NCBI GenBank assembly: GCA_018240405.1
Contig: JAFEFW010000637.1
Coordinates: 62,001 to 126,000, forward strand
Length of the DNA stretch: 64,000 bases
Reading direction: 5' to 3'
From: Pseudomonadota bacterium
GTDB lineage: Bacteria > Pseudomonadota > Alphaproteobacteria > Acetobacterales > Acetobacteraceae
The notes below the pieces were generated by a model. The model saw nothing but the letters and a program-made list of their open reading frames with translations. It was not told the DNA's origin and ran no database searches. Shown piece after piece: positions 10,144 to 56,692 of the stretch. The translations under genes were made by a program, and so were the position numbers. The stretch's first letter is position 1; every line of letters begins with the position of its first letter.

Positions 10144-10182
10144 GCTAGCGGCCTTCAATCAATCCCTGGGAGGGAACAAGCC

Positions 10183-11100: not shown

Positions 11101-11423
11101 GCACGGCGTTCCTGGTTGTCCGCGCGACGCTGGCCGAAATGGCCGATCGCCCTCGTTTCGACACCTGGTACAAGAAGGAACACCTGCCCGACGCACTGAA
11201 GGCATTCAACGCCGAAGCCGCCATGCGCGCCTGGAGCACACAGGATCCCAAGGTGCACACGGCGTTCTACCGCTTTCCGTCGCTGGAGGCGGCAAAGGCG
11301 GCCACCAGCGGCACCGCGATCAAGGAACTGATCGAGGAATTCGACCGCGTCTGGGGCGACCGCGTCCACCGCACGCGCGATATCATCGTCGTCGAGGATG
11401 AACTCAAGGGAGGCATACGCTGA
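11097..11423 (+). CDS. Small EthD-like dimeric alpha-beta barrel protein
   Basis: The 108-residue protein has the look of a ferredoxin-like dimeric alpha/beta barrel: STAFLVVRATLAE, then FDTWYKKEHLPDALKAF, a pattern typical of EthD and related small proteins, followed by FYRFPSLEAAKAATSG and RTRDIIVVEDEL. Such proteins sit in degradation operons as accessory or isomerase/monooxygenase-like factors. It overlaps the FAH stop by four bases and ends with TGATG overlapping the next gene's ATG. The function is not known; the fold assignment is by pattern only. Confidence 0.7.
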   Translation: MSTAFLVVRATLAEMADRPRFDTWYKKEHLPDALKAFNAEAAMRAWSTQDPKVHTAFYRFPSLEAAKAATSGTAIKELIEEFDRVWGDRVHRTRDIIVVEDELKGGIR

Positions 11424-12316: not shown

Positions 12317-12320
12317 GAGT

Positions 12321-13232
12321 ATGGACGTTCGTTACGACAACAGAGTCGCCATCGTCACTGGCGCCGGCGTGGGCCTCGGTCGCAGCCACGCGCTGCTGCT
12401 GGCCTCGCGCGGTGCCAAGGTGGTGGTGAACGACCCGGGCGGATCGGTGGACGGCACCGGCGGCGCTTCGGCCGTGGCCGACAAGGTGGTGGCCGAGATC
12501 AAGGCGGCCGGCGGCGAGGCCGTCGCCTCATACGCTTCGGTTGCTGACGAGAAGGCGGCGAACAGCATCATCCAGACCGCCATGGACACCTGGGGCCGCG
12601 TCGACATCCTGGTGAACAACGCCGGCATCCTCCGCGACAAGGCGTTCAACAACATGTCGATGGAGGACTACGAGTTCGTCAATCAGGTGCATCATTTCGG
12701 CACCGTCTACTGCACCAAGGCCGCCTGGCCGATCATGCGCAAGCAAAGCTACGGCCGCATCGTGGTCACGACTTCGGGCTCCGGCACGGTCGGCAATTTC
12801 GGCCAGGCCAACTACGGCGCGGCCAAGATGGCAGTGAACGGCCTGATCAACGTGCTGCGGTTCGAGGGCGCGAAATACAACATCCGCCTGAACGCGATCT
12901 CCCCCTCCGCCTACACGCGGATGACGGAATCGCTGCTGCCGCCAGACATGGCGCCGTGGATGAAGCCGGAACTCGTTTCCCCGATGGTGGCGTGGCTGTG
13001 CAGCGAGGAATGCGACCAGAACGGCGAGATCATGGCCGCGACCGCCGGCGGCTATGCCCGCGTCCAGTACTTCGTCACCGAAGGCAAGCAATTCGACCCG
13101 GCCGAACCGGTGACGATCGAAATGGTCCGCGACAGCCTGGATCAGATTCGCGACCTGACCCAGGTCAAGCCGTATTTCGGCATGATGGGCAATGTCGTTG
13201 ATAAGCTGCGGGAGATGGGCCGCATCAAGTAA
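12321..13232 (+). CDS. SDR-family dehydrogenase, similar to the (3R)-hydroxyacyl-CoA dehydrogenase of MFE-2
   Basis: The 303-residue protein has the NAD(P)-binding motif TGAGVGLGRSHA, the NNAG motif (VDILVNNAGILRD), the catalytic Ser in VVTTSGSGTVGN and YGAAK as the Tyr-x-x-x-Lys pair. An unusual VVNDPGGSVDGTG segment after the second strand and the C-terminal extension ending VVDKLREMGRIK match dehydrogenases related to multifunctional enzyme type 2, which oxidise (3R)-hydroxyacyl-CoA. It is the last gene of the rightward operon; a perfect hairpin follows at 13248-13275. Together with the enoyl-CoA hydratase it would give two beta-oxidation steps. Confidence 0.9.
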   Translation: MDVRYDNRVAIVTGAGVGLGRSHALLLASRGAKVVVNDPGGSVDGTGGASAVADKVVAEIKAAGGEAVASYASVADEKAANSIIQTAMDTWGRVDILVNNAGILRDKAFNNMSMEDYEFVNQVHHFGTVYCTKAAWPIMRKQSYGRIVVTTSGSGTVGNFGQANYGAAKMAVNGLINVLRFEGAKYNIRLNAISPSAYTRMTESLLPPDMAPWMKPELVSPMVAWLCSEECDQNGEIMAATAGGYARVQYFVTEGKQFDPAEPVTIEMVRDSLDQIRDLTQVKPYFGMMGNVVDKLREMGRIK

Positions 13233-13247
13233 CGAAGTCATGTGAGC

Positions 13248-13275
13248 AGCCGCACCGGCAAACACCGGTGCGGCT
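13248..13275. terminator. Hairpin between convergent genes (likely terminator)
   Basis: An 11-base perfect stem (AGCCGCACCGG with CCGGTGCGGCT) encloses a six-base loop. It lies between the SDR stop (13232) and the stop of the convergent membrane-protein gene (13309). No T-run follows on either strand, so it may be a weak bidirectional terminator or mRNA 3'-end stabiliser. Confidence 0.6.
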
Positions 13276-13308
13276 CCGTCACCGGAGCCGGCTGGCGGCG
13301 GTCTTGCT

Positions 13309-14925
13309 TCAGACGCCAGGGTCCTTCGACTTCGCTGGCTGGTCGGCAACGGGTGCGTGAGGAATACGAAGCAACACATAGTCTTCGCCCCGCACCACAG
13401 GGACCAATGCCGAAGGCGGCCGCGCCGGCCACAGTGCCGGGTTGATCACCAAGACCAGGTCGAAGAATGCCAACTCCCGCGGGTTATACGGGTCATCCGG
13501 CCGCAGCCACTTTGAGACGTGACCAACCTGGTAGACTGGCACGAACGACGCGTCGGCATAGGCTGGCAGCCGATAGACCAGGTTTTGCGACGGCAGCGCG
13601 TAGACCCCGGCATAGTAGGCATTGCGCCGGATCACCGCATAGCCCGGCAGGGATGCAATCGGCACCCGCACCACCGGCGCGAAATCGGTATAGGCAATGG
13701 CCGAGTAGATACGAGTGCCGGGCGGCACCGTGTCCAGCGCCGCCAGCACCGGGCGGAAGGCCGCATTGGCCGTCAGCCAGGCCTGCTCGACCACTGCTCC
13801 CCGCACCAAAGTCAGCAGTGCGATCACGGCAGCGAGCGCGTGAAACTCCATCCGCTGGGCCGGCACGACATCGGTCGATGCAACGGCAAGCATGAACAGC
13901 GCGATCGGCAGGCGGTTGGGGATGTAGTAGGTGCCAAACCAGAAATCCGGGATCAGCAGGAAGACCACGAGCAGCCCGGCGATTGGCAGCAGCCGCCGCC
14001 CGTCCACCCGCAGGCGGCCGGCCATCAACGCCAGGCCGCCGACCGCCAGCAGTATCAGCAGGGAGAGCTTGTCGATCACACCGTCATAGGCCCAGGTGAA
14101 GTTGCGCAGGACGACGAACCGGTCGCGCAACCCCGCCCAGGTCAGTTGCTGGACAAAGCTGGCCAGCGACGGCGGTTCTGTACCCGACGTCAGTGGTGAC
14201 AGCGCCATCAGCCCCAGCGGCAGGCAGGTCGCCAGCAGGACCGCGGGTAAGCGGCGAAAATTGCCTCGGCCTCCGAGCGGGCCGCGGACAAACAGCTCAC
14301 TGAACTCCGTGGCGACAACAATCCCGATCAGCAGCAATTGCGCGACGAGATGGCAGAAGAACAGCAGCACCGAACACAGTGCCAACCCGCAAAGTGCCAG
14401 TATTGGCCGGTCGCGTTTGCCGATCTCCCAGCCGGCCGCCCCGATGAAGGCCAGGCCAACGCCGAAGAAGTAGTTGAGCAGGCCGCCGAAGAACATGTCG
14501 TGGTAGAAGAACGGCAGCGCGATCAAGGGCCAGACCGACAACCGGCGGAAATTGGCATAGTGCAGGCCGATGACGCCGGCACTCATCGCCAGCAGCGACA
14601 GGCCGAGGAAAATCCGGCCGGCTGCCTCGATGCCGACCCCAAGCTGCATCAGCCCGAGCACGAACCCGTCGATCGCCAGGTTTGGCACCACCGCGAAACG
14701 ATAGGTGAACATATCGGCGAAGGCGGTGCCGTGGATAAGGCTATACAGAATGTGGATGCGGGCCAGATGGCCGGCATAATCCATCAACGGCGGGATCGGA
14801 TTGGTGACCACCGGCAGCAGCAGCAGTCCGACTGACACGCCGCCGAGTGCGACGATCAGCCACGTCGTCTTATCGGGTTTTCCGAAGGCGCCGCTGGGGC
14901 CTAACGAAACGGAAGGCTTGACCAT
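13309..14925 (-). CDS. Multipass integral membrane protein of unknown function
   Basis: I choose ATG 14925 (MVKPSVSLGP) because GGAGGTGGAG lies about nine bases upstream; an in-frame ATG at 14949 has no such site. The 538-residue protein has about ten or more hydrophobic segments, the first being TTWLIVALGGVSVGLLLLPVV, followed by a large loop with PPLMDYAGHLARIHIL. This order (TM1, then an acidic DYxGHxxR loop) resembles GT-C-type polyprenol-dependent glycosyltransferases or YfhO-like proteins, but I see no decisive motif. The C-terminal ~100 residues (YVLLRIPHAPV) look periplasmic. It stands alone between convergent neighbours. Function unassigned. Confidence 0.75.
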   Translation of the reverse strand: MVKPSVSLGPSGAFGKPDKTTWLIVALGGVSVGLLLLPVVTNPIPPLMDYAGHLARIHILYSLIHGTAFADMFTYRFAVVPNLAIDGFVLGLMQLGVGIEAAGRIFLGLSLLAMSAGVIGLHYANFRRLSVWPLIALPFFYHDMFFGGLLNYFFGVGLAFIGAAGWEIGKRDRPILALCGLALCSVLLFFCHLVAQLLLIGIVVATEFSELFVRGPLGGRGNFRRLPAVLLATCLPLGLMALSPLTSGTEPPSLASFVQQLTWAGLRDRFVVLRNFTWAYDGVIDKLSLLILLAVGGLALMAGRLRVDGRRLLPIAGLLVVFLLIPDFWFGTYYIPNRLPIALFMLAVASTDVVPAQRMEFHALAAVIALLTLVRGAVVEQAWLTANAAFRPVLAALDTVPPGTRIYSAIAYTDFAPVVRVPIASLPGYAVIRRNAYYAGVYALPSQNLVYRLPAYADASFVPVYQVGHVSKWLRPDDPYNPRELAFFDLVLVINPALWPARPPSALVPVVRGEDYVLLRIPHAPVADQPAKSKDPGV

Positions 14926-15068
14926 CGGCAGGCGCTCCACCTCCACCATGAGGTGCGCCGCATCATAGCAGAAATAGTTTCAAGGTGCCAGCAAGACCTT
15001 CAGAGCCAGTGGCAAGCCATTATGATTTCGGGAAATTTCGGACCAATGAGCAAGCCCGCCTGCACCGC

Positions 15069-16526
15069 CTACTCGCCCGGGCGGGGCTCGGATGCCTCGG
15101 TTTTGGCCGATTGCCGGCCAGTCAGGTCGTCGCCTGCCGTCACCGGCATCAGCACGGCGATCGGGGCCGCAACCAGCGTCATTAACCCCACGACGACAAA
15201 GGCCGCGCTGAAGTCGCCGATCGTCGGATCGGCGTGGCCGGAGAACAGGCGCGCCACCTCCAGCGACAGCGCACCGGCTGTCACGCCGATCGTGGCGGCA
15301 AGCTGCTGACCCGCGGTATAGAGGCTGGTCGCCGCGCTCATGCGCGGGCGCGGCACGTCGCCGTAGGCCAGCGTATTGTAGGCGGTGAACTGCAAGGAGC
15401 GCAGGAAGCCGCCGACCAGCAGGACAAGGTAGATGGCGGCGGCCGGCCAGGTCGGGCGAAACGCAGCGCAGGCAATCAGCATGATGGCAGACAGCACGCC
15501 GTTCCAGATCAGCGTGTTGCGGAAGCCGAACAGCCGTAGCGCGTGCTGCGCCGCCGGCTTCATGACCAGCGCGCCGGCCGACGAGGCAAAGGTGATCAGC
15601 CCGCTCTGCACCGCGGACTGGCCGAAGCCGACCTGCAGCATCATCGGCAGCAGGAACGGGATGGCGCCGATACCGGTGCGGAACAGCATCATCGCGGTGA
15701 AGGAGACGCCGAAGCATGGCAGGCGCATCAGTGTGAAGTCCAGCAGTGGCGCCTTATGACGGCGCGCATGCAGGAAATACAGGAAGGCAAAGCACAGCCC
15801 GATGCCGATCATCGCATAGGTCACCGTCTGTGCGACCACGCCGCGGCCAGCGGTCTCCAGGCCGAACATGAAGCAGGCTAGGGCGACGGCGGACAGCAGT
15901 AGGCCGCGCAGGTCGAACGCGGCGCCGGGTGGCTCGCGGATGTCCTTGATGAACGCGGTGACGGCCAGCAGGCCGATGATGCCAATCGGGATATTGATGT
16001 AGAACGTCCAGCGCCAGTCGAAATAGGTGACGATGAAGCCGCCTACCGGCGGGCCGACCACGGGCCCGAGCAGGGCCGGCATCGTCAGCCAGGCCATGGC
16101 GGCAACCATCTCGGTCTTGGCGGCGGTGCGCAGCAACAGCAGGCGGCCGACCGGCACCATCATGGCGCCGCCCATACCCTGGACCACGCGAGCCGCTACC
16201 AGTTCCGGCAGGCTGTTCGACAGCCCGCACCACACCGACCCCAACGTAAACACGATGATCGCAGCCCGGAACACGTTGCGCGTGCCGAACCGGTCGGCGA
16301 CCCAGCCGCTGGCCGGGATGAACACGGTCAGCGACAGAAGATAGGCGGTCAGCGCCACGTTCATCCGCACCGGGTCGATATCGAACGCACGCGCCATCGT
16401 TGGCAGGGCTGTCGCGATGATCGTCGAGTCCAGGTTCTGCATGAAAAACGCGCAGGCCACGATCACCGCGGTCAGGCGTGTCTGCGGCGAAACACGGACG
16501 ACGGGTGCGGAAGGTTGGCGGGGCAT
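15069..16526 (-). CDS. MFS transporter, DHA2 (EmrB/QacA-like) family
   Basis: At 485 residues with about 14 predicted membrane segments it fits the 14-TM DHA2 drug:H+ antiporters. TM1 contains QNLDSTIIATALPTMA, the D1 motif of this family; motif A is GWVADRFGTRNVF after TM2; motif C is GPVVGPPVGGFI in TM5, marking an exporter. It acts in the inner membrane. No EmrA-type adaptor or TetR regulator gene is adjacent, so it may work alone. Substrates cannot be predicted. The C-terminus is a short polar tail. Confidence 0.92.
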   Translation of the reverse strand: MPRQPSAPVVRVSPQTRLTAVIVACAFFMQNLDSTIIATALPTMARAFDIDPVRMNVALTAYLLSLTVFIPASGWVADRFGTRNVFRAAIIVFTLGSVWCGLSNSLPELVAARVVQGMGGAMMVPVGRLLLLRTAAKTEMVAAMAWLTMPALLGPVVGPPVGGFIVTYFDWRWTFYINIPIGIIGLLAVTAFIKDIREPPGAAFDLRGLLLSAVALACFMFGLETAGRGVVAQTVTYAMIGIGLCFAFLYFLHARRHKAPLLDFTLMRLPCFGVSFTAMMLFRTGIGAIPFLLPMMLQVGFGQSAVQSGLITFASSAGALVMKPAAQHALRLFGFRNTLIWNGVLSAIMLIACAAFRPTWPAAAIYLVLLVGGFLRSLQFTAYNTLAYGDVPRPRMSAATSLYTAGQQLAATIGVTAGALSLEVARLFSGHADPTIGDFSAAFVVVGLMTLVAAPIAVLMPVTAGDDLTGRQSAKTEASEPRPGE

Positions 16527-16620
16527 TGCGCCAGTGTCGCCTCAGTTACGGACCGTGGAAAGAGCAAGCGCGCCACCGCCTGCCATGACGTTGGCTCAGA
16601 GCGAATGGTTCGCCACGCCG

Positions 16621-18540
16621 TCAGCAGGCAGAAAGCTGCCGATACAGCGCCGGCAGCACCGCAGGAAGGCGTGACGGATTCGACACGATTGCATAGCCGC
16701 CCCGGCCGAACAGAGTCGGGAAATAGGACTGTGCCTTGGCGTCGATGGTGATGCCAAACACGGTTGTGCCGTCGCGCCGTGCCTCCTGCACGGCTCTGCG
16801 TGTGTCCTCGATGCCGTAGCGGCCTTCATAGTGGTCGGCATCGTTTGGCTTGCCGTCGGTCAGCACCAGCAACAGGCGGTGGCGGTGCGGGCGGGTCGTG
16901 AGTTGTGCCGTCGCATGGCGGACAGCCGCGCCCATCCGGGTATAGTGACCTGGGGTCAGCGCTCCGATGCGGCGGGCGATGCGCGGGCCGAATGGCTCGT
17001 CGAAGGTCTTCACGGAGCCGACTCGCACGTTCTGCCGGCACTGTGAGGTGAACGTCAGGATGGCGTGATCGTCGCCGCAGGCGGACAGCGCATGGGCGAA
17101 GACCAGCACCGCCTCCTTCGCCACGTCCAGCACGCGGCGGTCGGCGGCCCAACTATCGGTCGACAGCGATGTATCCACCAGCAGCAGCGCCGCCAGGTCG
17201 CGTGCCTGGCGGCGCACTAGCAGGTGCACGTTGTCGGACCCGGTGCCGGACGCCAGCAGATCAGCCCTGGCCCGCACCAGGGCGTCAAGATCGTAGTCGG
17301 CGCCGTCCGGCTGGGCGCGCTGCACGACGTGACCGGGGCGGAATGCCTCGAACTGCCGCCGGACGTGGCGGATGCGGCGCCAGGTCAGCGCATCGGGCTG
17401 CCAGGACTCGCCCTGCTCCGCTGCCGGGCCAGCCAGCACCCGGCAATGATCCTTATGATAGGCGCGCCGCCTATAGTCCCATTCGGGGTAGGTCAGCACG
17501 GCCGTCAGTGGCTGGGCGTCAGTGCCAGGGGGCGGCAAATCGAGCTCCACCTTCAGGCGCGTGGAGGCCTTGCGGCTGATTGAGGTCAAGCCGATCTCGT
17601 CGGCATCCTCCAGTGCTTTGCGCGCGCCTTCCTCGTCGTCGTCGTCGACCTTGCGGTTGATGTTCAGCGACTCGATCAGCGACAGGATCTTTTCAAAGCG
17701 GTTCAGGATCAGGCTGTCGGACCGTTCGATCTGGTCGCCGGGGCGGCGTTGCGCCTTGCGGGTCCGGCTGTCGGTTGATTCACCGGCCTTGCCAGGCTCG
17801 CCGTCTTCGGCCGGGGCCGGGGTAGCGGTCACGGGCTGGAGCGCGTCACCCCAGAGCGGGACTGGCAGGAACGGGCGGTAGCCCTTTGGCGCGGTCAGCC
17901 CGGCCGGGACAGGCGTGCCCGTGACGAACTGCCAGAAGCCACCGGGATGGTCGTCGGAGCCTAGCAGCGCGAGAACCGCGTGCTCGATATTGGCTTCGGC
18001 GGGAGGCAGCCGGCGGGCGGGCCGCTGGCCGCGCAGGGTCGCGCAGAGCTCGGCGTGCGTCGCATGAAGCCCCGCCGCGGACCGCAAGGCCGCCTGCGTC
18101 GCATCCCGGGCCGCGCGCAGGCGGTGCAGATCGTTGCGCAGTGGGTCAGGATCGGTCGCCGCCGGACGGCGATGCGCGAAGTATGCCGCCAGCCACACAT
18201 ACAGCGCGCGGTTCTGGGCCTTGTCCGGCAGCGCGTCGATCACCGCCGGCAGCAGCAGGGTGATGCCATCAAGGCGGGGTTGCGGCAGCGCCTCCTGCCC
18301 GTGGCCGAGACGCAGGCGGAGCGAGAGGCGATGCGCGGACGCTTCGGCGCCGATGGCGCCCAGTTTGATGCCGGACGCGCCGCCGAGGCCGCGAAACAGG
18401 ACGGCGAGCGACCCCCGCACGTCTTCCAGCGCCACGGCCGCATCCGGGAAGCGCGGCCAGGAGGCGCTGGCACCAGCCCAGCGGTGCCAGTGCCGGCCGA
18501 CGAATTCCTCGGGTTCCAGAAGGGAGAGCAGGCCGGTCAT
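16621..18540 (-). CDS. norD: Nitric oxide reductase activation protein NorD
   Basis: The 639-residue protein ends with a von Willebrand A domain (about 440-639): the MIDAS element VDTSLSTDSW around residue 455, TDGKPNDADHYEGRYG and the ending segment FGITIDAKAQSYF are characteristic of NorD. NorD partners with the MoxR-type ATPase NorQ to insert the non-heme iron FeB into NorB. The N-terminal part is long and poorly conserved, as in other NorD. A 292-base gap with REP-like inverted repeats separates it from norQ, whereas the two genes are usually adjacent, so it may depend on read-through or its own promoter. Confidence 0.93.
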   Translation of the reverse strand: MTGLLSLLEPEEFVGRHWHRWAGASASWPRFPDAAVALEDVRGSLAVLFRGLGGASGIKLGAIGAEASAHRLSLRLRLGHGQEALPQPRLDGITLLLPAVIDALPDKAQNRALYVWLAAYFAHRRPAATDPDPLRNDLHRLRAARDATQAALRSAAGLHATHAELCATLRGQRPARRLPPAEANIEHAVLALLGSDDHPGGFWQFVTGTPVPAGLTAPKGYRPFLPVPLWGDALQPVTATPAPAEDGEPGKAGESTDSRTRKAQRRPGDQIERSDSLILNRFEKILSLIESLNINRKVDDDDEEGARKALEDADEIGLTSISRKASTRLKVELDLPPPGTDAQPLTAVLTYPEWDYRRRAYHKDHCRVLAGPAAEQGESWQPDALTWRRIRHVRRQFEAFRPGHVVQRAQPDGADYDLDALVRARADLLASGTGSDNVHLLVRRQARDLAALLLVDTSLSTDSWAADRRVLDVAKEAVLVFAHALSACGDDHAILTFTSQCRQNVRVGSVKTFDEPFGPRIARRIGALTPGHYTRMGAAVRHATAQLTTRPHRHRLLLVLTDGKPNDADHYEGRYGIEDTRRAVQEARRDGTTVFGITIDAKAQSYFPTLFGRGGYAIVSNPSRLPAVLPALYRQLSAC

Positions 18541-18614
18541 CTGGGTCGGAGCCTTGGCAGGACTATGCGAGGAGGACAGACTTGACGTCCGTCGCGACAG
18601 TGCAACGATGCTAA

Positions 18615-18734
18615 CCTCTCGTCATGGCGGGCGGGGGCCCGCCATTCACGGCGTTGCCACAAAGACAATGTCTGGTCCTTGCGCTTTCCCATTGCGAGGC
18701 GTGGATGGCGGGCCTTCGCCCGTCCTGACGAGAG
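18615..18734. repeat. REP-like inverted repeat pair between norQ and norD
   Basis: Two ~39-base copies lie head to head: 18615-18653 (containing CTCTCGTCATGGCGGGC and CCGCCATTCACG) and 18696-18734, which read in reverse complement gives CTCTCGTCAGGACGGGC and CCGCCATCCACG. Each copy also folds on itself. A third degenerate relative is near 18768-18800 (GGGGCGAAGGCCTGTCCTGACG). This is the usual structure of REP/BIME elements in alphaproteobacterial intergenic DNA. The rest of the 18541-18832 gap holds no gene. Confidence 0.7.
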
Positions 18735-18832
18735 AGCAATGGCCGTCATCGACAGACCTGTGTTAACGCTCATGGGGCGAAGGCCTGTCCTGACGGGAAG
18801 GCCGCGATCAGTGCGTCCGACTTTGGCACATC

Positions 18833-19648
18833 TCATCCCAGCGTAACGGTGGCGAGGTCGAGCAGCCCGCGCTTCACCTCCGGATCATCGGTCAGCGGTT
18901 CGATCATTGCGGCGGCGATCGCGTCGTCCAGCTTCATGCCCGCGGCGATCAGCGTGGCGGCGTAGACCACCAGCCGGGTGGAGCAACCCTCCTCCAGATC
19001 CACGCCCTTCAACGCGCGCAGCCGAGCGGCAAGCATGACCAGCGGGCGGCAGCGCTGCACCGGCAGGCCGCTTTCCTCCGCAACGATCTGCAGCTCCGCC
19101 TCCTCGCTTGGAAAGCCAAACTCCAACGCCAGAAACCGCTGCCGCGTGCTCGGCTTCAGCGCTTTCAGCGCATTTTGGTAGCCCGGGTTATAGGAGCATA
19201 CCAACATGAAATCGTCGGGGGCGTGCAACAACTCGCCGGTGCGGTCGAGCGGCAGCAGGCGGCGATCATCGGTCAACGGATGCAGCACGACCGCAACGTC
19301 CTTGCGCGCCTCGACCACTTCATCCAGGTAACAAATGCCGCCGTGGCGGACGGCGCGGGTCAGCGGCCCATCGACCCAGACCGTATCGCCGCCGCGCAGC
19401 AGATAACGGCCGGTCAGGTCGGCGGCCGTCAGGTCATCATGGCAGGAGACGGTGTGCAGCGGCAAGCCGAGGCGGGCGGCCATGTGGGCAACGAAACGGG
19501 TCTTGCCGCAACCGGTCGGGCCTTTCAGCAGCAGCGGCAGGCGGTGGCGGTAGGCCTGCTCAAACAGCGCGCACTCGTTGCCGGTTGGCAGATAGAACGG
19601 CGGCTCCGGCTGGTGCACCAGCACGGGCGTACGCATGGCGTGGGGCAT
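18833..19648 (-). CDS. norQ: NorQ/CbbQ-family MoxR-type AAA+ ATPase
   Basis: Start chosen at the ATG at 19648 (MPHAMRTPVLV), preceded at eight bases by AAGGA; a GTG at 19717 in the same frame lies inside norB and upstream of an intrinsic terminator, so it is rejected. The 271-residue ATPase carries Walker A GPTGCGKT, Walker B CYLDEVVEAR (within GGICYLDEV), sensor VCSYNPGYQ and the C-terminal TLIAAGMKLDDAI. NorQ forms hexamers that, with NorD, activate NorCB by FeB insertion. The position right after norB supports this over the RuBisCO-linked CbbQ role. Confidence 0.94.
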   Translation of the reverse strand: MPHAMRTPVLVHQPEPPFYLPTGNECALFEQAYRHRLPLLLKGPTGCGKTRFVAHMAARLGLPLHTVSCHDDLTAADLTGRYLLRGGDTVWVDGPLTRAVRHGGICYLDEVVEARKDVAVVLHPLTDDRRLLPLDRTGELLHAPDDFMLVCSYNPGYQNALKALKPSTRQRFLALEFGFPSEEAELQIVAEESGLPVQRCRPLVMLAARLRALKGVDLEEGCSTRLVVYAATLIAAGMKLDDAIAAAMIEPLTDDPEVKRGLLDLATVTLG

Positions 19649-19669
19649 CGGGAAAGTCCTTGGACGCGG

Positions 19670-19706
19670 AAAAACAAAGCCCGGCTCCGTGGTGACGGAG
19701 CCGGGC
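19670..19706 (-). terminator. Intrinsic terminator/attenuator between norB and norQ
   Basis: On the minus strand a perfect 12-base GC-rich stem (GCCCGGCTCCGT with ACGGAGCCGGGC, four-base loop, 19679-19706) is followed by TTTGTTTTT (19678-19670). This is a textbook Rho-independent terminator. It starts eight bases after the norB stop (19714) and precedes the norQ start, so it should reduce transcription of norQ-norD relative to norC-norB. Confidence 0.85.
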
Positions 19707-19713
19707 GCGACAG

Positions 19714-21063
19714 TCACTCGGCTGGTTTCAGCGCGGCCGGTTGACCCGCTGTCTCCAGGTTGGGAACCAGAAGGGCAACCAGATACATCAGGAAGCCGAT
19801 CATCGTGATCGCCCCGCCGGCCAGGCGGATCCAGTAGAACAGCGTCAATTGCTGCTGGACATCCATGTACTCCATGCCCAGCACCCGCTCGAGATGCGTC
19901 TGCAGGATACCGGCGAAGGTCAGCGCCAGCGACATCAGGATGACGCCACCGGTGATCGTCCAGAACGAAGCGATGTTCAGCCGCTGGTTATAGGGCGCGC
20001 GGCCGAGCAGTTGCGGCATCGCAAAGGAGAACATCGCCAGGTTCACCATCGCATAGGCGCCGTAGAAGGCGAGGTGGCCATGCGCGGCTGTCACCTGTGT
20101 GCCGTGCGTGTAGTAGTTCACACCCGACAGCGTGTGCAGGAAGCCCAGCACGCCGGCGCCGAGGAAGGCGCAGATCGCGCAGCCCAGCGACCACAGCAGC
20201 GCGGCCTTGTTCGGATGGTCGCGGCGGCCCTTCCACACCATGCCAAAGGCAAAGATCACCATGGCAAAGAACGGCAGCGGCTCGACGGCCGAGAAGATGC
20301 TGCCGATCCACTTCCAGTAACCAGGCGTGCCGATCCAGTAATAGTGGTGGCCGGTGCCAAGGATGCCGGAGAACAGCGCGGTGCCGATTATGACGTAGAG
20401 CCACTTCTCGATGACCTCGCGGTCGACGCCGGTCATCTTGATCAGCATGAAGGCGAGGATGGCGGCCATCACCAGTTCCCACACGCCCTCGACCCACAGA
20501 TGCACGACCCACCACCAGAACATCTTGTCGATGACGACATTGGCGGGGACGTAGAACGCGAACAGGAAGAAGACGGCGACGCCCCACAATCCCAGCAGCA
20601 GAATGCCGGAGATGACGGTGCGGCGGCCCTTCAGCACGGTCATCGAGCAGTTGAACAGGAAGATCAGCGCCACGGCGACGATGCCAATTTTGATGATCAT
20701 CGGTTGCTCGAGATAGGAGCGGCCATCGTAGAAGCCGAACAGATAGCCGACGACGCAGATCGCGGCCGCCACGAAGAACAGCCAGAACTGGATGATCGCC
20801 AGTTTCGGGCTGAATAATTCGCGTTCGGTCTCCTCGGGCAGCAGATAGTAGGTGCTGCCGAAGAAGCCCAGCAGCAGCCAGACAATCAGCGCGTTGGTGT
20901 GGATCATGCGGACGACGCTGAATGGCAGCAGGTCGACCGGCACGATCGTCGGCGCGACGTAGACCGAAGCGCCGATCAGGCCAAACAGTAACTGCAACGA
21001 AAAGATCAGCAGCGCGCCGATGAAGTACGGCTTCGCCACCGCCTGGGATTGGTATTTCAACAT
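19714..21063 (-). CDS. norB: Nitric oxide reductase subunit B (cNOR catalytic subunit)
   Basis: The 449-residue, ~12-TM heme-copper oxidase superfamily protein has the NorB ligands: MIHTNALIVWLLLGFFG (low-spin heme His), VHLWVEGVWELVMA (FeB His and the NorB-specific glutamate), GTGHHYYWIG (two FeB histidines), and AAHGHLAFYGAYAMVN (heme b and b3 histidines). It has no N-terminal quinol-oxidase extension, so it is the short cNorB that pairs with NorC, not qNOR. It reduces 2 NO to N2O at the inner membrane. It follows norC by 12 bases and is followed by a terminator and norQ. Confidence 0.97.
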   Translation of the reverse strand: MLKYQSQAVAKPYFIGALLIFSLQLLFGLIGASVYVAPTIVPVDLLPFSVVRMIHTNALIVWLLLGFFGSTYYLLPEETERELFSPKLAIIQFWLFFVAAAICVVGYLFGFYDGRSYLEQPMIIKIGIVAVALIFLFNCSMTVLKGRRTVISGILLLGLWGVAVFFLFAFYVPANVVIDKMFWWWVVHLWVEGVWELVMAAILAFMLIKMTGVDREVIEKWLYVIIGTALFSGILGTGHHYYWIGTPGYWKWIGSIFSAVEPLPFFAMVIFAFGMVWKGRRDHPNKAALLWSLGCAICAFLGAGVLGFLHTLSGVNYYTHGTQVTAAHGHLAFYGAYAMVNLAMFSFAMPQLLGRAPYNQRLNIASFWTITGGVILMSLALTFAGILQTHLERVLGMEYMDVQQQLTLFYWIRLAGGAITMIGFLMYLVALLVPNLETAGQPAALKPAE

Positions 21064-34392: not shown

Positions 34393-36666
34393 ATGGCCAT
34401 CAACGTTCTCCACAATGCGTTCGTCGACCAGGCGTCGATAACCACTGCATTGTCGAAGATGGTCGGCGTCACGCCGGGCGCGAATAATCCGGCGTATCTG
34501 GTACTGACTGCGCTCGACCGTAACGAATACACAGCGGGCTCCACCGGGGCGACGGGCTGTTTCATAGGCAACGGTAAGACGTTGGCATTCAGCGGGATTG
34601 GCGGCGATGGGCGCGGCACCGGCCTCGTCTTCACCTACCAGGCAGCCAGCGGGCGCTACTACAATAGCGTATACGGATATCTTGACGAGCTGGTGTACAA
34701 GTCGTCCAGCAACAGGAACGACGTTACCAACATTTCGCTGTTCGGCACCAGCAACCTCAGCCTGGCAAACCAGTACGCCAGCAATGCCTGGTATGCGATG
34801 CAGATCAGCGCATTCAACTACCTCGGCAGCGTCACCGTCGCGACCCAGCCGGCGTTTGCCGGACCGGTGCCGGACCAGGCGACGCCGATGTCGATTGCCG
34901 CGGTCGCCAGCAGCTTTGTCGGCAAAGCCTGGAACATGAACGGATGCTGGGTGCTCGCCAGCACGATTGCCGCAGAGGCCGGCGCCTCACTGCCGCTGCG
35001 CAGCACGGCCATTGGTCTGGCGGGACAGGCGAATGGCGAATGGGTCGTGGCCTTCAACGGTCCGGCCGGACAGACCGGCGCCTGGCAGCAGATGGTCACT
35101 GCCGGTGAGATCGTGGTGTTCGGCTTTGCCGGTGGCGGCGGCCACATCACCACGTGTGTATCGGGCTCGGGCAGCAGCGCCATGCTGGTCGACAATATCA
35201 CCTACGTTAACGGCAACGGTACAGTCGCGAATCCGGCAAATGACGGATCGGCGAGTGACATCCTGATCGCGCCGCCGCACCCCGCGTCACACGAGTGGGC
35301 CAGTGCGATCGCGTCGACTGTCGTTATCTATCAGCTCGATACACCGATCGTCACCGCGAAGGTCAGCAGCGTCAGCCTCACCTGCGGCATGTCGCTGTCG
35401 CTTTACACGCTGTTCTCGGTCAGCGATCCAGCCGGCAGGCCGATCACCAAGTGGCAGGTGTATGACACCGCCGCGAGCGACTGGCTGGTCTGCAACGGCG
35501 CCAGCACGTCGAACCATGCCGCGAGCACGGCGCTTGAGGTAGGATCGTTGTCGCCGGTTTCGCTGCTGGCGGGTTCGGTAGCGGTCACCGACACGATCGG
35601 GGTGCGGGCGTACAACGGGTCCTATTGGGGCGACTGGCAGACCCTGACTGTCGCTGTCACCACGTCAGCGGTCGCGGCACCCAGGGCGCCCTCCGCGCCG
35701 GTGGTCACCAACCAGACGGCGGCGCAGACCTGGCTGGCTGGGCAGTCGCTGTCGCTGACCCTGCCGGCCAACACGTTCACCGACCCGGACCAGCAGGCGC
35801 TGAGCTACGCCGCAACATTGTCGTCCGGTGCGGCGCTGCCGTCCTGGCTGAAGTTCAATGCGGCCACCGATACGTTCACCGGCATCGTTCCAAGCGTGGC
35901 GCAGAAACTGACGCTGTCGGTGAAGGCGACCGACACCAGCGGCCTGTCCGCGACCGACACGTTCGCCGTGACGGTGATTGGCGCCCCGACGGTGACGGCG
36001 CAGACGCCGATGCAGAACTGGGTCGTTGGACAGAAGGTCAACCTGGCCCTGCCCGGCAACACATTCACCGATCCGCAGGGGCAGAAGCTGACCTATACGG
36101 CGTCGCTTGCCTCCGGCGCCGCCCTGCCGTCCTGGCTGCAGTTCAACGGCGCCACCGATACGTTCACCGGCACGGCGCCGAGTGTGGCTCAGGCCATGAA
36201 CATCAAGGTGACAGCGACGGACGCCAGCGGCCTGAGCGCGTCAGAAACCTTCACCGCCGCCGTCAAGCCGGGCATTGCGGTGGCCAACCCGATCCCGGAT
36301 CAGACCTGGCTGAACAACAGGGCGCTGAACGTCGTCCTGCCCGGCAACACATTCACCGACTCGCTTGGCCTGAAGATGAGTTTCGCCGCCTACCAGGTCT
36401 CGGGGCCAAGCGTGACGTCCTGGCTGCGGTTCAACGGGTCCAGCCTGACCTTCTCCGGCGCGGTGCCGGCAACGCAGTCCGGTACGATCGGCCTCGCCAT
36501 CCTGGCAACCGACGCGGCGCGTTGCAGCGCGACCGACATGTTCCAGGTCAGCTTTGCGACCGCCGCTTCGGGCCAGGTGCATGCGGAAATCCAGTCTGTG
36601 GCCTCGGCGCTGTATGATCCGTATGATCAGACGCAGCTGCAGGGACTGATTCCGCTGGAACGGTGA
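34393..36666 (+). CDS. Secreted-type protein: Cys-peptidase-like region plus three cadherin-like (He_PIG/CADG) repeats
   Basis: I start at ATG 34393 (MAINVLHNAFVDQA); TTG 34351 would add 14 residues. The 757-residue protein has no clear signal peptide and is Ser/Thr/Ala-rich with few charges. Residues about 165-275 resemble a papain-like NlpC/CHAP fold: the nucleophile candidate Cys185 in WNMNGCWVLAS and the base candidate His251 in GEIVVFGFAGGGGHITT, with Asp267/Asn268 behind. Three tandem ~95-residue repeats follow (about 434-723), each with the PGNTFTD and SWLxFN signatures of dystroglycan-type cadherin-like modules. It is probably an extracellular or surface protein. Secretion route unknown. 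Confidence 0.75.
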   Translation: MAINVLHNAFVDQASITTALSKMVGVTPGANNPAYLVLTALDRNEYTAGSTGATGCFIGNGKTLAFSGIGGDGRGTGLVFTYQAASGRYYNSVYGYLDELVYKSSSNRNDVTNISLFGTSNLSLANQYASNAWYAMQISAFNYLGSVTVATQPAFAGPVPDQATPMSIAAVASSFVGKAWNMNGCWVLASTIAAEAGASLPLRSTAIGLAGQANGEWVVAFNGPAGQTGAWQQMVTAGEIVVFGFAGGGGHITTCVSGSGSSAMLVDNITYVNGNGTVANPANDGSASDILIAPPHPASHEWASAIASTVVIYQLDTPIVTAKVSSVSLTCGMSLSLYTLFSVSDPAGRPITKWQVYDTAASDWLVCNGASTSNHAASTALEVGSLSPVSLLAGSVAVTDTIGVRAYNGSYWGDWQTLTVAVTTSAVAAPRAPSAPVVTNQTAAQTWLAGQSLSLTLPANTFTDPDQQALSYAATLSSGAALPSWLKFNAATDTFTGIVPSVAQKLTLSVKATDTSGLSATDTFAVTVIGAPTVTAQTPMQNWVVGQKVNLALPGNTFTDPQGQKLTYTASLASGAALPSWLQFNGATDTFTGTAPSVAQAMNIKVTATDASGLSASETFTAAVKPGIAVANPIPDQTWLNNRALNVVLPGNTFTDSLGLKMSFAAYQVSGPSVTSWLRFNGSSLTFSGAVPATQSGTIGLAILATDAARCSATDMFQVSFATAASGQVHAEIQSVASALYDPYDQTQLQGLIPLER
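34951..35200 (+). other. Putative papain-like catalytic region within the secreted-type protein
   Basis: This sub-region encodes WNMNGCWVLAST (Cys codon at 34945) through GGGGHITTCVSG, the arrangement of a Cys-peptidase/NlpC-CHAP domain. It is a motif-level inference; the rest of the fold is not verified. Confidence 0.4.
35694..36573 (+). repeat. Three tandem cadherin-like (CADG) repeats
   Basis: Copies at about 35694-35985, 35986-36273 and 36274-36573 each encode ~95 residues with the pattern NQT/PDQTW, L(S/N)L-x-LP-x-NTFTD, SWL-x-FN and FTG/FSG. DNA identity between copies 1 and 2 is visibly high, copy 3 is more diverged, which suggests stepwise duplication. Confidence 0.8.
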
Positions 36667-51707: not shown

Positions 51708-52120
51708 GCGCAAGCGCGTCAGCAGGGTCGGCAGATCGTTGCTGTTCTATTAGCGCGGCTACCCGGCAACCAGCGACGGCATCGCTATTTGAGCGGCTGG
51801 AGTGAGTTCGGCGTCGTAGGATCGAGCACGAAGGCCGCGTCGCTTTTATTGGTCGCCAATAGTCATGTGAGACAACAAAGCCACGGGCGTGGCGCGCCCA
51901 AGCAACTATTGATAATTTATCGCAATCAAATCGGTCTTAAAAACTTTTTGACGCTGCAAGATTCCAGAGGTAATGACACTATCGTAATCATACGGGGTGC
52001 TTTACCCGGGCAAGACAAATTGTTGCAAAATATTCGCCCGCCCCTGTTGCCACTTTCTTCGGCGTGTGGACGACGCGTCGCAGACGGGGCGGCCGAAGCC
52101 ATGGCCGCAAGGATATCCCA
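51708..52120. other. A/T-richer leader of the six-repeat protein gene
   Basis: 413 bases with clear A/T enrichment at 51900-52040 relative to flanking coding DNA, likely carrying the promoter of the large repeat gene. A TTGACG element at 51948 has no good -10 at 17 bases. No gene, RNA or repeat is evident. A + strand frame through 52124 is a shadow. Confidence 0.5.
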
Positions 52121-55100
52121 ATGACCCTTCCAACAACAGAACCAACCTTCTTCGGCGCCACGATTGCGACCACGATCGACACGACCGCGCACAAATGGGT
52201 TGCCGATCAGGACGGATTGTTTCACACTGCAACCGACCTGAACGCGGAGTGGCAGGCAGCCTACGACAAGATGATCGCGGGGTCTGCTGATACGATGTCC
52301 TTCATCGCCAGGCTGGAGGGCAACGCGCAGGCCGTGTTCCAGAACACCGGCCTGAATGCGCTGTCAGCCGAGGAGCAGAAGGCGGACCGGGAGGACGTCC
52401 AGCGCGTGTTGGACTCGGTCGGGCTGGCGATGAAGAAGGCCGGCGTCAGTGGGACCACGCCGCTGACCACGGTGGACTACCTGAAGATCGGCTACGCCTT
52501 GCAAGGCAGTCCGATTCTGCAGGAACTCGCGCAGCAGGGCTACGGCTTGTATGCAGCGGCCGAGCCGAAATACAGCGGCTATGTCAATGACTTCAGATGG
52601 GCCGATGGCTCGACGCTGTATATCGGCGGCGGTCTGGACAACAACGAGAACGCGCTCGACCGTTTCTTCGGCGATGTACTGCTGCCAAATCTGATCTTTC
52701 CGGCGGCGGCACAGGATGGGTATCTGGTGCAACTGGATTACAACGGCTCCGCCTGGGGCAGTGCCGCACTGCCCGACATTGTCGGAGCGCTCGATCAGTT
52801 CGGCTTCGGACGCGTCCTGACGGCAGCGGATTTCTCTGATACACCCGGTTCGGCGTCCTCGGCACCGGCCGCGCCGCCGCCTGCGCCAGCCGCACCGCCG
52901 CCAAGCGGGCAGATGTATTCGCAGCTCACCGGCATGCTGGTGCCGACGACAATCACCGCCAACTCCCATACCTGGATCGCCAATGAGGATGGGCTGTACC
53001 TGACCGAGGCCGATCTCGCCACCGAGTGGCAGGGCTACTATCAGCAGATGCTGGCAGGCAACGGCGCCTCGCTGACCGGCCTGCAACGCCTGGAGGGCAA
53101 CGCCGAAGCAGTCTTCGAGAACACCGATATCGCCAAGGTTGCACAGATGGATGCGACCGCAGTTGCATACTACCGTATGGATGTGCAGCGCGAAATCGAC
53201 GCCATCGCCGCCACCATGTCGTCGCTCAAGTACAGCCCGAGCGTGCGGTTGAATACTCAGACCTATCTGGCCATCCAGCATGCGCTCATCGCCAACCCGG
53301 CCATGCAGGAACTGGCAGTGCAGGGTCATGGGTTAAACAACCCGATCTCGCCGATCTATGACGGCTACACCAACGATTTCCAGAACGACGTCGACGACCG
53401 CACGCTGTATCTGGGCCCTGGACAGGACACCGGTGAGCGCGCGCTGCGCGACTTCTTCGACGACGCGATCCTGCCGCATCTGCCGTTCCCGACCATCGCC
53501 CGGGACGGGGAGATGGTGCAACTGAACCAGAACGCCAATGAGGAGTCGACGCTGCAGCAGGCGGTCGACGCTTTGAACATGGCGATGTTCACGCGCACCC
53601 TTACGGCTGCGGATTTCGGTAAGCCGGGTGCGCCGGTCGCCGGGACGACAGTGCCGGCCGGCAAGATCCTGTCCTATTTCGGCAACATCATCTCGAATAC
53701 AGCAACCCTGAATGGCCATGTCTGGACCGTCGGGTCGGATGGCCGCTTCCACACCACCGCGGACCTGCAGACCGAGTGGAAGACCTATTACCGTCTGATG
53801 CTGGCCGGCAGGGGATCTGCGCTGACTGCCGTCCAGCGTCTGATAGGCAATGCTGAAGCGGTGTTCGAGAATACCGCACTGGCCGATACCAGACGCTTTA
53901 GCGCTGCCAAGCAGAAGGCTTACCGCGAAGATGCCCAGCGCGAGTTCGACGTGATCGCGGCCGCGATGGCCACGCTCAAGCTGGGCAAGACCCTGCTGAC
54001 GGAACAGGATTATCTGGCCATCGGTCAGGCCATCCAGTCCAACGCGATATGGCAGGAGCTTGGGATGCAGGGGCACGGCCTGAACGACGCGCCGTCGCCA
54101 AAATATTATGGCTATACCCATGACTTTCAGAACAACTCGGACTGGGAAACCTATTATGTCGGCGGCGGCCCATCGAATGGCGAGCACGCGGTCGCCGACT
54201 TCTTCGACGATGTCATCCTGTCTCACCTGCCATTCCCGGTGGTCTGGCAATGGAACGGGCTGACGCAGCTCAACCAGAACGGCAATGCCGAAGATGACCT
54301 GGACGAAGCCGTTGCCGCCACCAACGATGCCATGTTCCGGCGAGTCTACGTCGCCGGCGACTTCTCCAAGAATCCGAACGCGACCGGGCCGGTGATGTGG
54401 GTTAGCCCGGCAATGGCAACCGCGACACCGCCGCCTGCGCCGGTGCCGGGTCCCGGGCAGATGCTGTCGCTGACGGGGCAGGTGATCCCGACGACCATGG
54501 TGGTCAATGGCAACACCTGGACCGCGGACGCCGACGGCCGCTACCAGACGACCACCGATCTGGCTTTGGCCTGGTACCGGTCCTACCAGACGGCACTGGC
54601 CGGCGGTACGCTGACTCTGACGCAGCGCTGGCAGGCCCAGGCCGAGGCCGTGTTCTTGAACACCTGCCTGAGCAAAGCGTCGGAAGCGGATCAGGCGGTC
54701 TTCCGGGCCGACGTGCAGCGGGAGATCGACGCGGTCGTGACCGCCATGGCGAGTTTCGGCGTCACCGGCGGACCACTTGGGATCGGGACCTATCTGCGGA
54801 CAGAGCATGCGCTGCAGGGCAATGCCGCGCTGGAGGAACTTGCTCTTCAGGGCCACGGGCTGAATAACCCACCCTCCAGCCGCTACGACGGCTATACCAA
54901 TGACTTCCAGTGGGCGAGCTATGGCACCCTGTATGTCGGGAGTGGGCTGAACAACGGCGAACAGGCCGTCGCCGACATGTTCGACGACGTCATCATGACG
55001 CACCTGCCGTTCGCGACGATCGCGCAGGACTATGAGATCGTCCAGCTCAACCAAAACGGTAACGAGGAGAGCACGCTCGCCGCCGCCGTCGCCCAGTTCA

Positions 55101-56692
55101 ATCAAGTGCTGACCGGCCCCCTGCTGACTGCAGCCAATTTCCTGGTCCCCGGCAAGATGCCAGCAGCGCCGGCGCCGGCCGGATTATCCAGCACCACAGG
55201 GTTTTTCGGCGATACGCTGCCAGGATCGACCGGTGTCAACGGCCACACCTGGACGTTGAACGCCGATGGCCTGTACGTCACCACGGCCAACCTGGAGATC
55301 GAGTGGCGCGGCTACTACCAGACGATGCTGGCTGGAAAAGGCGACACGCTGACCGCCACCCAGCGTCTGGAAGGCAATGCCGAGGCGGTGTTCGAGAACA
55401 CCTCGATCTCGGAGCGCTGGGCGCCGGAAGAAGCGCAGGCGCGCATGGATGTGCAACGTGCGATCGACGCCATCGCCGGCGCCATGGCGATCGACAAGAC
55501 CACCTACGGCATCGATCCGTCACAGCCGCTGACCGAGGCCAGCTATATTCGCCTGGGAGAAACGCTGCGTGCCAATCCGCTGCTGGAGGAACTGGCGCTG
55601 CAGGGACATGGTGTCTGGAACCAGAGCGAGATCTACTACGGCGCCAAGGCGCATCTGGGCTGGCTCTGGTCTGACACGCTGTTTGTCGGTGGAGGCGCCG
55701 GCAACGGGCAGAACGCCATCGACTATCTGCTGGACAGTATCGTGACGAATCTGCCCTTTGCCACGACCTGGCATAATGGCGCCTGGATGCAGTTCGATTC
55801 CGACGGCGATCCGCTGATGACGGCACAGGCGGCGGCAACGTTGTTCAACACATCCGCCTACCGGCAGGTCTATGTGCGGTCCGACTTCGACCTCTCGGCC
55901 AGCGCGGTTGGCGCGGTGGTCACGGTGCCTGGGTCGGTGGCGCCGGACGCGGTGCCGATCACGTCGATGTCGCCGACGCCCGGCAAGGTGCTGACGCTGG
56001 ACGGCAGCCAGATCGCCAACACGATGACGCTGAACGGCCATGTCTGGACCGCCGATTCCAACGGCCTGTTCCACACCACGAGCCTCGCGGCAGAATGGCA
56101 GACGCTGGGGCAGAAGGTGCTGGCCGGCCAGACGGCGGGACTGACCCCGTGGCAGATCCTGGAAGGCAATGCGGCCATCGTGTTCCAGAACACGGGCCTG
56201 TCGACGCTGGCCGGCACCGCGCTGCAGGCGGCACAGGAGGATGTGCAGCGCGTGATCGACGCCGAAGTCGGCGCGGCGGCGATCAATGCCACGACGCTGG
56301 GCATCCCGTCCAACGCAACGCTGGTGCACGGCTCCTACCTCGCGCTGGAGCGGACATTGCAGTCGTCACCGGTGCTGCGTGAGCTTGCGCTGCAGGGTGT
56401 CGGCCTGAACAACCCGCCCTCGGCGCGCTACAGCGGTTTCCTCAACAGCTACACCGCTGCGCAGCCGACCACTTGGTATGTCGGGCCGGGTCCGAACAAC
56501 TGGCAGAACGCGCTGTCCGTCTACATGATGGAGAACATCATCATGGAGACGGCATTCCCGACTGTCTGGAAGTGGGGCCAGTTCCTGCAGCTGGATCAGA
56601 ACGGGGAGTGGGTCATGTCTCTGGATGACGCCGTCGCCGTGGCGGCAGCCTCCACCACCGTCCCACTGACCGCGGCGCAGTTCCGGCGATAG
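52121..56692 (+). CDS. Giant six-repeat protein of unrecognised domain family
   Basis: Start at ATG 52121 (MTLPTTEPTFFGATIA), with AAGGAT upstream; the frame from 52064 is longer but less likely. The 1523-residue protein is almost entirely six tandem repeats of 244-265 residues. Each carries H-x-W-T/V, DLxxEW, Y(Y/D)-x-x-MLAG, RLEGNAEAVF(E/Q)NT, DVQREIDAI, LAxQGHGLNNP, GYTNDFQ, (L/Y)YVG-x-G-x-(N/S)NGE, DFFDDVI-x-HLPF and QLNQNG-x-E signatures. Linkers between some copies are Pro/Ala-rich (e.g. PAAPPPAPAAPPP). No signal peptide, RTX, cysteine-rich or membrane segment is visible; low charge and Asn/Thr content suggest an extracellular role. Function unassigned. It ends six residues after the last repeat. 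Confidence 0.85.
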   Translation: MTLPTTEPTFFGATIATTIDTTAHKWVADQDGLFHTATDLNAEWQAAYDKMIAGSADTMSFIARLEGNAQAVFQNTGLNALSAEEQKADREDVQRVLDSVGLAMKKAGVSGTTPLTTVDYLKIGYALQGSPILQELAQQGYGLYAAAEPKYSGYVNDFRWADGSTLYIGGGLDNNENALDRFFGDVLLPNLIFPAAAQDGYLVQLDYNGSAWGSAALPDIVGALDQFGFGRVLTAADFSDTPGSASSAPAAPPPAPAAPPPSGQMYSQLTGMLVPTTITANSHTWIANEDGLYLTEADLATEWQGYYQQMLAGNGASLTGLQRLEGNAEAVFENTDIAKVAQMDATAVAYYRMDVQREIDAIAATMSSLKYSPSVRLNTQTYLAIQHALIANPAMQELAVQGHGLNNPISPIYDGYTNDFQNDVDDRTLYLGPGQDTGERALRDFFDDAILPHLPFPTIARDGEMVQLNQNANEESTLQQAVDALNMAMFTRTLTAADFGKPGAPVAGTTVPAGKILSYFGNIISNTATLNGHVWTVGSDGRFHTTADLQTEWKTYYRLMLAGRGSALTAVQRLIGNAEAVFENTALADTRRFSAAKQKAYREDAQREFDVIAAAMATLKLGKTLLTEQDYLAIGQAIQSNAIWQELGMQGHGLNDAPSPKYYGYTHDFQNNSDWETYYVGGGPSNGEHAVADFFDDVILSHLPFPVVWQWNGLTQLNQNGNAEDDLDEAVAATNDAMFRRVYVAGDFSKNPNATGPVMWVSPAMATATPPPAPVPGPGQMLSLTGQVIPTTMVVNGNTWTADADGRYQTTTDLALAWYRSYQTALAGGTLTLTQRWQAQAEAVFLNTCLSKASEADQAVFRADVQREIDAVVTAMASFGVTGGPLGIGTYLRTEHALQGNAALEELALQGHGLNNPPSSRYDGYTNDFQWASYGTLYVGSGLNNGEQAVADMFDDVIMTHLPFATIAQDYEIVQLNQNGNEESTLAAAVAQFNQVLTGPLLTAANFLVPGKMPAAPAPAGLSSTTGFFGDTLPGSTGVNGHTWTLNADGLYVTTANLEIEWRGYYQTMLAGKGDTLTATQRLEGNAEAVFENTSISERWAPEEAQARMDVQRAIDAIAGAMAIDKTTYGIDPSQPLTEASYIRLGETLRANPLLEELALQGHGVWNQSEIYYGAKAHLGWLWSDTLFVGGGAGNGQNAIDYLLDSIVTNLPFATTWHNGAWMQFDSDGDPLMTAQAAATLFNTSAYRQVYVRSDFDLSASAVGAVVTVPGSVAPDAVPITSMSPTPGKVLTLDGSQIANTMTLNGHVWTADSNGLFHTTSLAAEWQTLGQKVLAGQTAGLTPWQILEGNAAIVFQNTGLSTLAGTALQAAQEDVQRVIDAEVGAAAINATTLGIPSNATLVHGSYLALERTLQSSPVLRELALQGVGLNNPPSARYSGFLNSYTAAQPTTWYVGPGPNNWQNALSVYMMENIIMETAFPTVWKWGQFLQLDQNGEWVMSLDDAVAVAAASTTVPLTAAQFRR
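52148..52840 (+). repeat. Repeat 1 of the six-repeat protein
   Basis: Starts at FFGATIATT and ends at AADF. Most divergent copy, e.g. QGYGLYAAAEPKYSGYVNDF in place of the QGHGLNNP-type segment; followed by a Pro/Ala linker. Confidence 0.85.
52931..53620 (+). repeat. Repeat 2 of the six-repeat protein
   Basis: Contains RLEGNAEAVFENT, DVQREIDAIAATM, VQGHGLNNPISP, GYTNDFQND and QLNQNANEES. Confidence 0.88.
53678..54366 (+). repeat. Repeat 3 of the six-repeat protein
   Basis: Contains NGHVWTVGSDG, RLIGNAEAVFENT, MQGHGLNDAPSPKYYGYTHDF and GGGPSNGEHAVADFFDD. Confidence 0.88.
54472..55143 (+). repeat. Repeat 4 of the six-repeat protein
   Basis: Contains NGNTWTADADG, WQAQAEAVFLNT, DVQREIDAVV, LQGHGLNNPPSSRYDGYTNDF and NNGEQAVADMFDD. 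Confidence 0.88.
55199..55895 (+). repeat. Repeat 5 of the six-repeat protein
   Basis: Contains NGHTWTLNADG, RLEGNAEAVFENT and LQGHGVWNQSEIY; the DFFDD motif is altered to DYLLDSI. Confidence 0.85.
55999..56689 (+). repeat. Repeat 6 of the six-repeat protein
   Basis: Contains NGHVWTADSNG, ILEGNAAIVFQNT, LQGVGLNNPPSARYSGF and QLDQNGEWV; the gene ends just after its last segment. Confidence 0.87.

Follow-up and report, generated by a model that had tools for sequence, protein, structure and literature searches.

A six-unit tandem protein of an Acetobacteraceae bacterium and its relatives in three phyla: intact and decayed copies of a ten-residue polar set

A single long gene of the window (the whole stretch of 64,000 nucleotides that was analysed) encodes a protein of six tandem units, and the unit, of about 245 residues, has no name in any of the libraries searched and, to judge from its model, may represent a new fold. 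Throughout the family a set of ten polar residues is nearly always either kept whole or largely lost. Our working hypothesis, which we hold tentatively, is that the protein is extracellular, that each intact unit carries a catalytic or metal pocket, and that the decayed units have been kept as scaffold.

Results

The six-unit gene

The frame is open for 1523 codons, and its six units, compared in pairs, align from end to end with 33–52% identity. The features discussed below are as follows.

51708..52120, forward strand: AT-richer intergenic leader, GC 0.55 versus 0.66 for the window
52121..56692, forward strand: gene of the six-unit protein, 1523 aa, pI 4.42, K+R 4.8%, one Cys
52127..52879, forward strand: unit 1, site decayed (1/10 site residues)
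52904..53638, forward strand: unit 2, site intact (10/10)
53657..54394, forward strand: unit 3, site intact (10/10)
54452..55174, forward strand: unit 4, site intact (10/10)
55184..55933, forward strand: unit 5, site decayed (1/10)
55979..56689, forward strand: unit 6, site decayed (3/10); ends at the stop codon
53327..53545, forward strand: unit 2 site, H403 N406 T417 Q421 D447 H453 N469 Q470 N471 E475
54074..54292, forward strand: unit 3 site, H652 N655 T666 Q670 D696 H702 N718 Q719 N720 E724
54854..55069, forward strand: unit 4 site, H912 N915 T926 Q930 D955 H961 N977 Q978 N979 E983

The gene apparently stands alone as a single gene, since the downstream gene runs in the opposite direction and the upstream gene ends 413 bases before it. 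The leader would probably hold the promoter region and ribosome-binding site; by eye, a Shine-Dalgarno-like AAGGA lies seven bases 5' of the ATG, and an alternative in-frame GTG start is found upstream of the ATG, at 52064. The 200 bases 5' of the chosen start are AT-richer than the locus in all seven homologues measured. One copy of the gene is present in the host genome (7.37 Mb, 681 contigs).

Homologues compared in five close pairs (homologous loci are given L numbers) are under purifying selection, with dN/dS, derived from dN and dS, of about 0.06–0.28 (L019/L022, ~0.06; L006/L007, ~0.10; L011/L012, ~0.17; L010/L011, ~0.19; L017/L018, ~0.28). Given these ratios, and homologues that match the whole protein in the number and order of their units, we take the frame to be neither a chance opening nor untranslated, the latter being an outcome that the initial annotation named as refuting its reading. 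Its description of six tandem repeats in a 1523-residue protein is borne out by the end-to-end alignment, and the periods it gave (259, 250, 265, 244 and 265 residues) are correct. The H-x-W landmarks that it placed at 52196, 52973, 53723, 54518, 55250 and 56045 all prove to be W codons, but unit 4 has N-x-W, and the strings it listed as conserved are exact in some units only (RLEGNAEAVFENT in units 2 and 5, QGHGLNNP in units 2 and 4). We agree, by eye, that there is no signal peptide or membrane segment, and the reported lack of an RTX motif is matched by a count of zero for GGxGxD in the six-unit protein.

The unit as an unrecognized domain

Searches of Pfam, NCBIfam, PHROGs, PADLOC and PDB sequences returned no significant match to the six-unit protein; the best Pfam entry was CooC_C (E 0.028, 14.9 bits versus a cut-off of 29), NCBIfam gave none, and PADLOC gave no family at E up to 0.01. 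When 84 units were scanned singly, the best E-values were 0.0055 (Pfam) and 0.0076 (NCBIfam), from unrelated families each seen in one or two units, and a profile of the 84 units retrieved one chain from the PDB sequences, at E 2.2. No mention of the motif strings GHGLNNP and GYTNDFQNN was found in the literature, nor was anything of apparent relevance present among the papers matched on novel protein families.

The AlphaFold2 model of a single unit has a pLDDT of 96.9, and the best match of this model to the PDB in Foldseek has an E-value of 1.6. The earlier proposal of a folded but unrecognized domain is therefore supported, as no repeat scanned singly has a significant profile match and the model is of this quality; the six units are not equivalent, the site being lost in three of them. 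Unit 2, our type unit, is predicted with high confidence to be one compact domain of ~245 aa with a small N-terminal beta part and a helical core as scaffold, and its C-terminal half (unit residues ~142–214) is modelled, again with high confidence, as the part that carries the ten-residue polar set. Units 1–4 modelled together gave a pTM of 0.83, which makes a beads-on-a-string reading less plausible; in the model these units are probably not loose beads.

The ten-residue set

Alignment columns were clustered according to which units keep the consensus residue, and from one group of 16 columns ten polar positions were taken (H142, N145, T156, Q160, D186, H192, N208, Q209, N210 and E214 in unit-2 numbering). 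In 98 units, 61 keep all ten residues, 37 keep none to six and not one keeps seven to nine. The alignment in which this pattern appears is also the one that supplied the ten columns, and 'intact' means all ten by definition. The variance of the count is 13.5, as against 5.2 or less in 5000 ten-position sets taken from 52 further, similarly conserved positions, so that 0/5000 random sets reached the observed value. Because the columns had been picked on the same data, the set was also re-derived on a random half of the loci and tested on the other half, in 40 splits; of a mean of 51.6 units, 28.7 kept nine or ten residues, 3.4 kept seven or eight and 19.6 kept none to six, and an average of 7.5 of the ten re-derived positions belonged to the original set. 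Fifteen units placed afterwards, ten of which are taken as copies or near-copies of genes within the 98, include ten that keep all ten residues, four that keep two to five and one that keeps nine. The five truly new units among them (two L016 pieces, L025 and two L028 pieces) keep 10, 4, 10, 10 and 9, respectively, and the unit with nine belongs to a broken planctomycete gene.

H192 is missing in every one of the 37 decayed units. Identity among the 61 intact units averages 51%, with a minimum of 39%, and W24, W42, Q95, D99, G141 and G143 are invariant in intact and decayed units alike. With these invariant positions on one side and the site columns on the other, the N-terminal half looks like the scaffold and the C-terminal half like the site; the set itself has, from the sequence comparison, the look of an active or ligand site. 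Decay recurs across the family: unit 1 is decayed in the window protein and intact in L005 and L008, unit 4 is decayed in L015 and intact in L014, and losses are also seen in unit 2 of L024, unit 3 of L010–L012 (5–6/10 kept) and units 2–4 of L021 and L023. In 11/11 six-unit proteins, both unit 5 and unit 6 are decayed.

Unit number and architecture

Homologues carry 1, 2, 4, 6 or 12 units, distributed as follows.

One unit: L017, L018, L025, L027
Two units: L019, L020, L022, L026, with a weak extra fragment after the L020 gene
Four units: L013–L015
Six units: the window protein, L005–L012, L023, L024
Twelve units, a doubled six: L021

The L021 protein (9779–19288, in a Roseiarcus MAG) has 3170 aa, and its second six units are nearly identical to its first six: either the doubling is recent or the assembly is at fault. 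The homologues at L016 (9025–11416) and L028 (9785–11450) are broken into several ORFs, by decay or by sequencing error. In a tree of the 98 units, grouping is mostly by position across species (unit 1 of the window protein, for instance, lies with the first units of other proteins), which gives the six-unit plan, at the level of sequence, the appearance of being old and stable. The exceptions are units 3 of L010–L012, L021 and L023, which lie near units 5. In L014 and L015, the last unit groups with the last units of the six-unit proteins.

Occurrence

Two short peptide patterns, with which divergent members may be missed, were used to scan genome_contigs (one genome per species, 84,980 species), and 24 homologous loci were found, all in MAGs according to their record titles. 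By title, 15 belong to Rhodopila/Acetobacteraceae/Rhodospirillales, one to Roseiarcus, one to Sphingomonadales, three to Mycobacterium/Mycolicibacterium, one to an actinobacterium, two to Schlesneria and one to Planctomycetales. The carriers thus span Alphaproteobacteria, Actinobacteria and Planctomycetes, a wider range than the related genomes to which one outcome named in the initial annotation would have confined the family. Many of the titles name a site; two of these places, Kiruna and Alinen Mustajarvi, were sampled for a stratified-lake data set (PMC8121793), whose main text does not mention 'Umea'.

Presence is patchy. In whole-genome searches, the family was carried by 4/34 genomes of the genus and by 15/398 sampled genomes of the taxonomic family (the host genome itself counted in both), and in a sample of the class, searched with a six-row profile, the only one of 385 genomes was the host's own. 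Similarly, the taxonomic family of one mycobacterial carrier yielded 1/201 genomes, that carrier. Twenty carrier genomes of the 24 loci were searched, and in each the matches fell at one place on one contig. The L019 gene (Schlesneria) has a GC of 0.521 as against 0.515 for its locus, a closeness that speaks against a binning error there; the corresponding values for L018 are 0.66 and 0.676. No match to the unit family was found in phages or plasmids (tblastn) or in viral contigs (pattern scan), and a mobile-element or defence reading was rejected, there being no phage, plasmid, viral or PADLOC match.

Gene neighbourhood

ORFs flanking the 24 loci and the window gene were compared at a threshold of at least 50% identity over most of the ORF. 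Flanks are shared by L006/L007, L011/L016, L012/L016, L018/L025 and L019/L022, and a single ORF by L010/L026; no flanking gene of the window is common to any of the 24 loci at this threshold. At looser cut-offs, ABC-transporter and dehydrogenase matches recur, which we take to be common families, and no neighbourhood link to a pathway emerged from the 24 loci and the window. In seven congeners, the stretches around the homologue of the downstream acyl-CoA dehydrogenase contained 0/12 of the other window genes tested, which left no way to define an empty site. In three other carriers of the genus (contig numbers of L005, L006 and L007), the dehydrogenase homologue is on other contigs than the six-unit gene. 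This, together with the lack of a flank in common with the window, fits an accessory gene that was gained or moved singly. Elsewhere in the window, three adjacent genes (16621–21063, reverse strand) resemble, by eye, a nitric oxide reductase cluster (VWA protein, MoxR-type ATPase and NorB-like protein).

Composition and export

The six-unit protein contains 11.4% N+Q and 0.07% Cys, and only 2 of the 38 window ORFs taken as genes are lower in K+R, one being the He_PIG protein at 34393–36666. Eight proteobacterial homologues have K+R of 3.4–6.2%, pI of 4.1–4.6 and 0 to 4 Cys each. The Ig-like domain He_PIG (PF05345) lies C-terminal to the unit in 3/3 actinobacterial proteins scanned (L017, L018 and L027); the Pfam scan did not find it in the window six-unit protein. 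Judged by eye, actinobacterial relatives have a signal-peptide-like start, and proteobacterial members show no recognizable export signal. On the basis of its composition and its He_PIG-bearing relatives, the window protein is likely to be extracellular; it would be exported without a Sec signal peptide, perhaps via a type I system, and the host genome holds, on another contig, one HlyD-type protein above cut-off. In the Schlesneria proteins, the LExRR-VPA N-terminus is reminiscent of a planctomycete export-type motif. The term LEPR-XLL was not found among the literature matches listed (best 5 of 3,034), and the available part of the text of PMC4452313 has no 'LEPR'.

The He_PIG protein at 34393–36666 (forward strand) is itself probably secreted, with three He_PIG stretches, K+R of 3.4% and no signal peptide by eye; in its N-terminal half, GCW and GGGGHI stretches recall, by eye, an NlpC/CHAP-type peptidase.

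Discussion

Under our working hypothesis, the six-unit gene product would be a secreted multidomain protein, and its ten-residue set would make up a single pocket, as sequence and secondary structure suggest; this pocket, with two His, an Asp and a Glu plus Asn/Gln, would probably coordinate a metal or other ion. H192 would be essential, given its absence from all decayed units. Units 2, 3 and 4 would do chemistry on an extracellular substrate, and units 1, 5 and 6 would be pseudo-domains, retained through their packing into a fixed superstructure. An enzyme is our first choice over pure binding, since none of the 98 units departs from the set at just one to three positions (one of the five further units does), although several copies per chain suit multivalent binding equally with catalysis. 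The main rival is binding, by a multivalent surface adhesin or lectin, whose intact units would hold a glycan or polar ligand through the Asn/Gln/His-rich set, with copies conferring avidity and decayed units acting as spacers. We regard this as possible, if somewhat doubtful; the range of 1 to 12 copies per chain, the He_PIG that follows the unit in each of the three scanned proteins from Actinobacteria, the Pro/Ala linkers and a patchy presence that suits surface proteins are all consistent with it. In tandem lectins, however, binding sites often vary between copies, unlike the 61 units identical at ten positions, and the high four-unit pTM, a property of the model, opposes flexible beads on a string.

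That the ten residues merely stabilize the fold, as an ion or hydrogen-bond cluster (e.g. with Ca2+) that has no ligand of its own, seems to us improbable: a set rich in Asn, Asp, Gln and Glu in an acidic protein would suit such a role, but the rest of the core persists in 37 units from which many or all of these residues are missing, so the fold seems to manage without them. We consider it very unlikely that the protein is a cytoplasmic ring or scaffold in Proteobacteria and is secreted only in Actinobacteria, for the extracellular-type composition is found also in the eight proteobacterial homologues measured, even though no Sec signal is visible in the window protein and a fixed four-unit arrangement is predicted. 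Returning to the enzyme reading, one may speculate that a new fold founds a new class of secreted metal-dependent enzymes, with gene transfer between aquatic bacteria belonging to three phyla and, in the window protein, a fixed assembly of three working and three decayed copies; taken as a whole, this is rather unlikely. If the unit is an enzyme, the extracellular proteins of aquatic bacteria would include a new fold and a new activity. The unit offers a clean target (pLDDT ~97, best Foldseek PDB E 1.6, three phyla and a near all-or-none ten-residue set), and the six-unit plan, with its orthologous positions and recurrent site loss, is a good natural case of tandem copies becoming scaffold.

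Among known systems, Legionella LpiR1 / Lpg0634 (PDB 5fia, 5es2) gave the best structural rows for the unit, far below a meaningful match. He_PIG-bearing extracellular proteins are approached by L017, L018 and L027, which carry this domain, and another He_PIG protein is encoded in the window; however, the unit matches no Pfam domain and the window six-unit protein is without He_PIG. Type I substrates that lack a Sec signal differ, as a class, in that the window protein has no RTX motif or RTX family match (Pfam, NCBIfam), no linked secretion genes are seen and the chain ends on unit 6, but they resemble it in being acidic, low in K+R and almost free of Cys, with no N-terminal signal by eye, and an HlyD-type protein is present in the host genome. 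The general plan, tandem copies in a secreted protein with some of them decayed, is already known. Although no relation in sequence or fold was found between the unit and tandem-domain proteins that have decayed copies (pseudo-enzymes and tandem carbohydrate-binding modules), they have in common with it the combination of intact and decayed sites on a retained scaffold.
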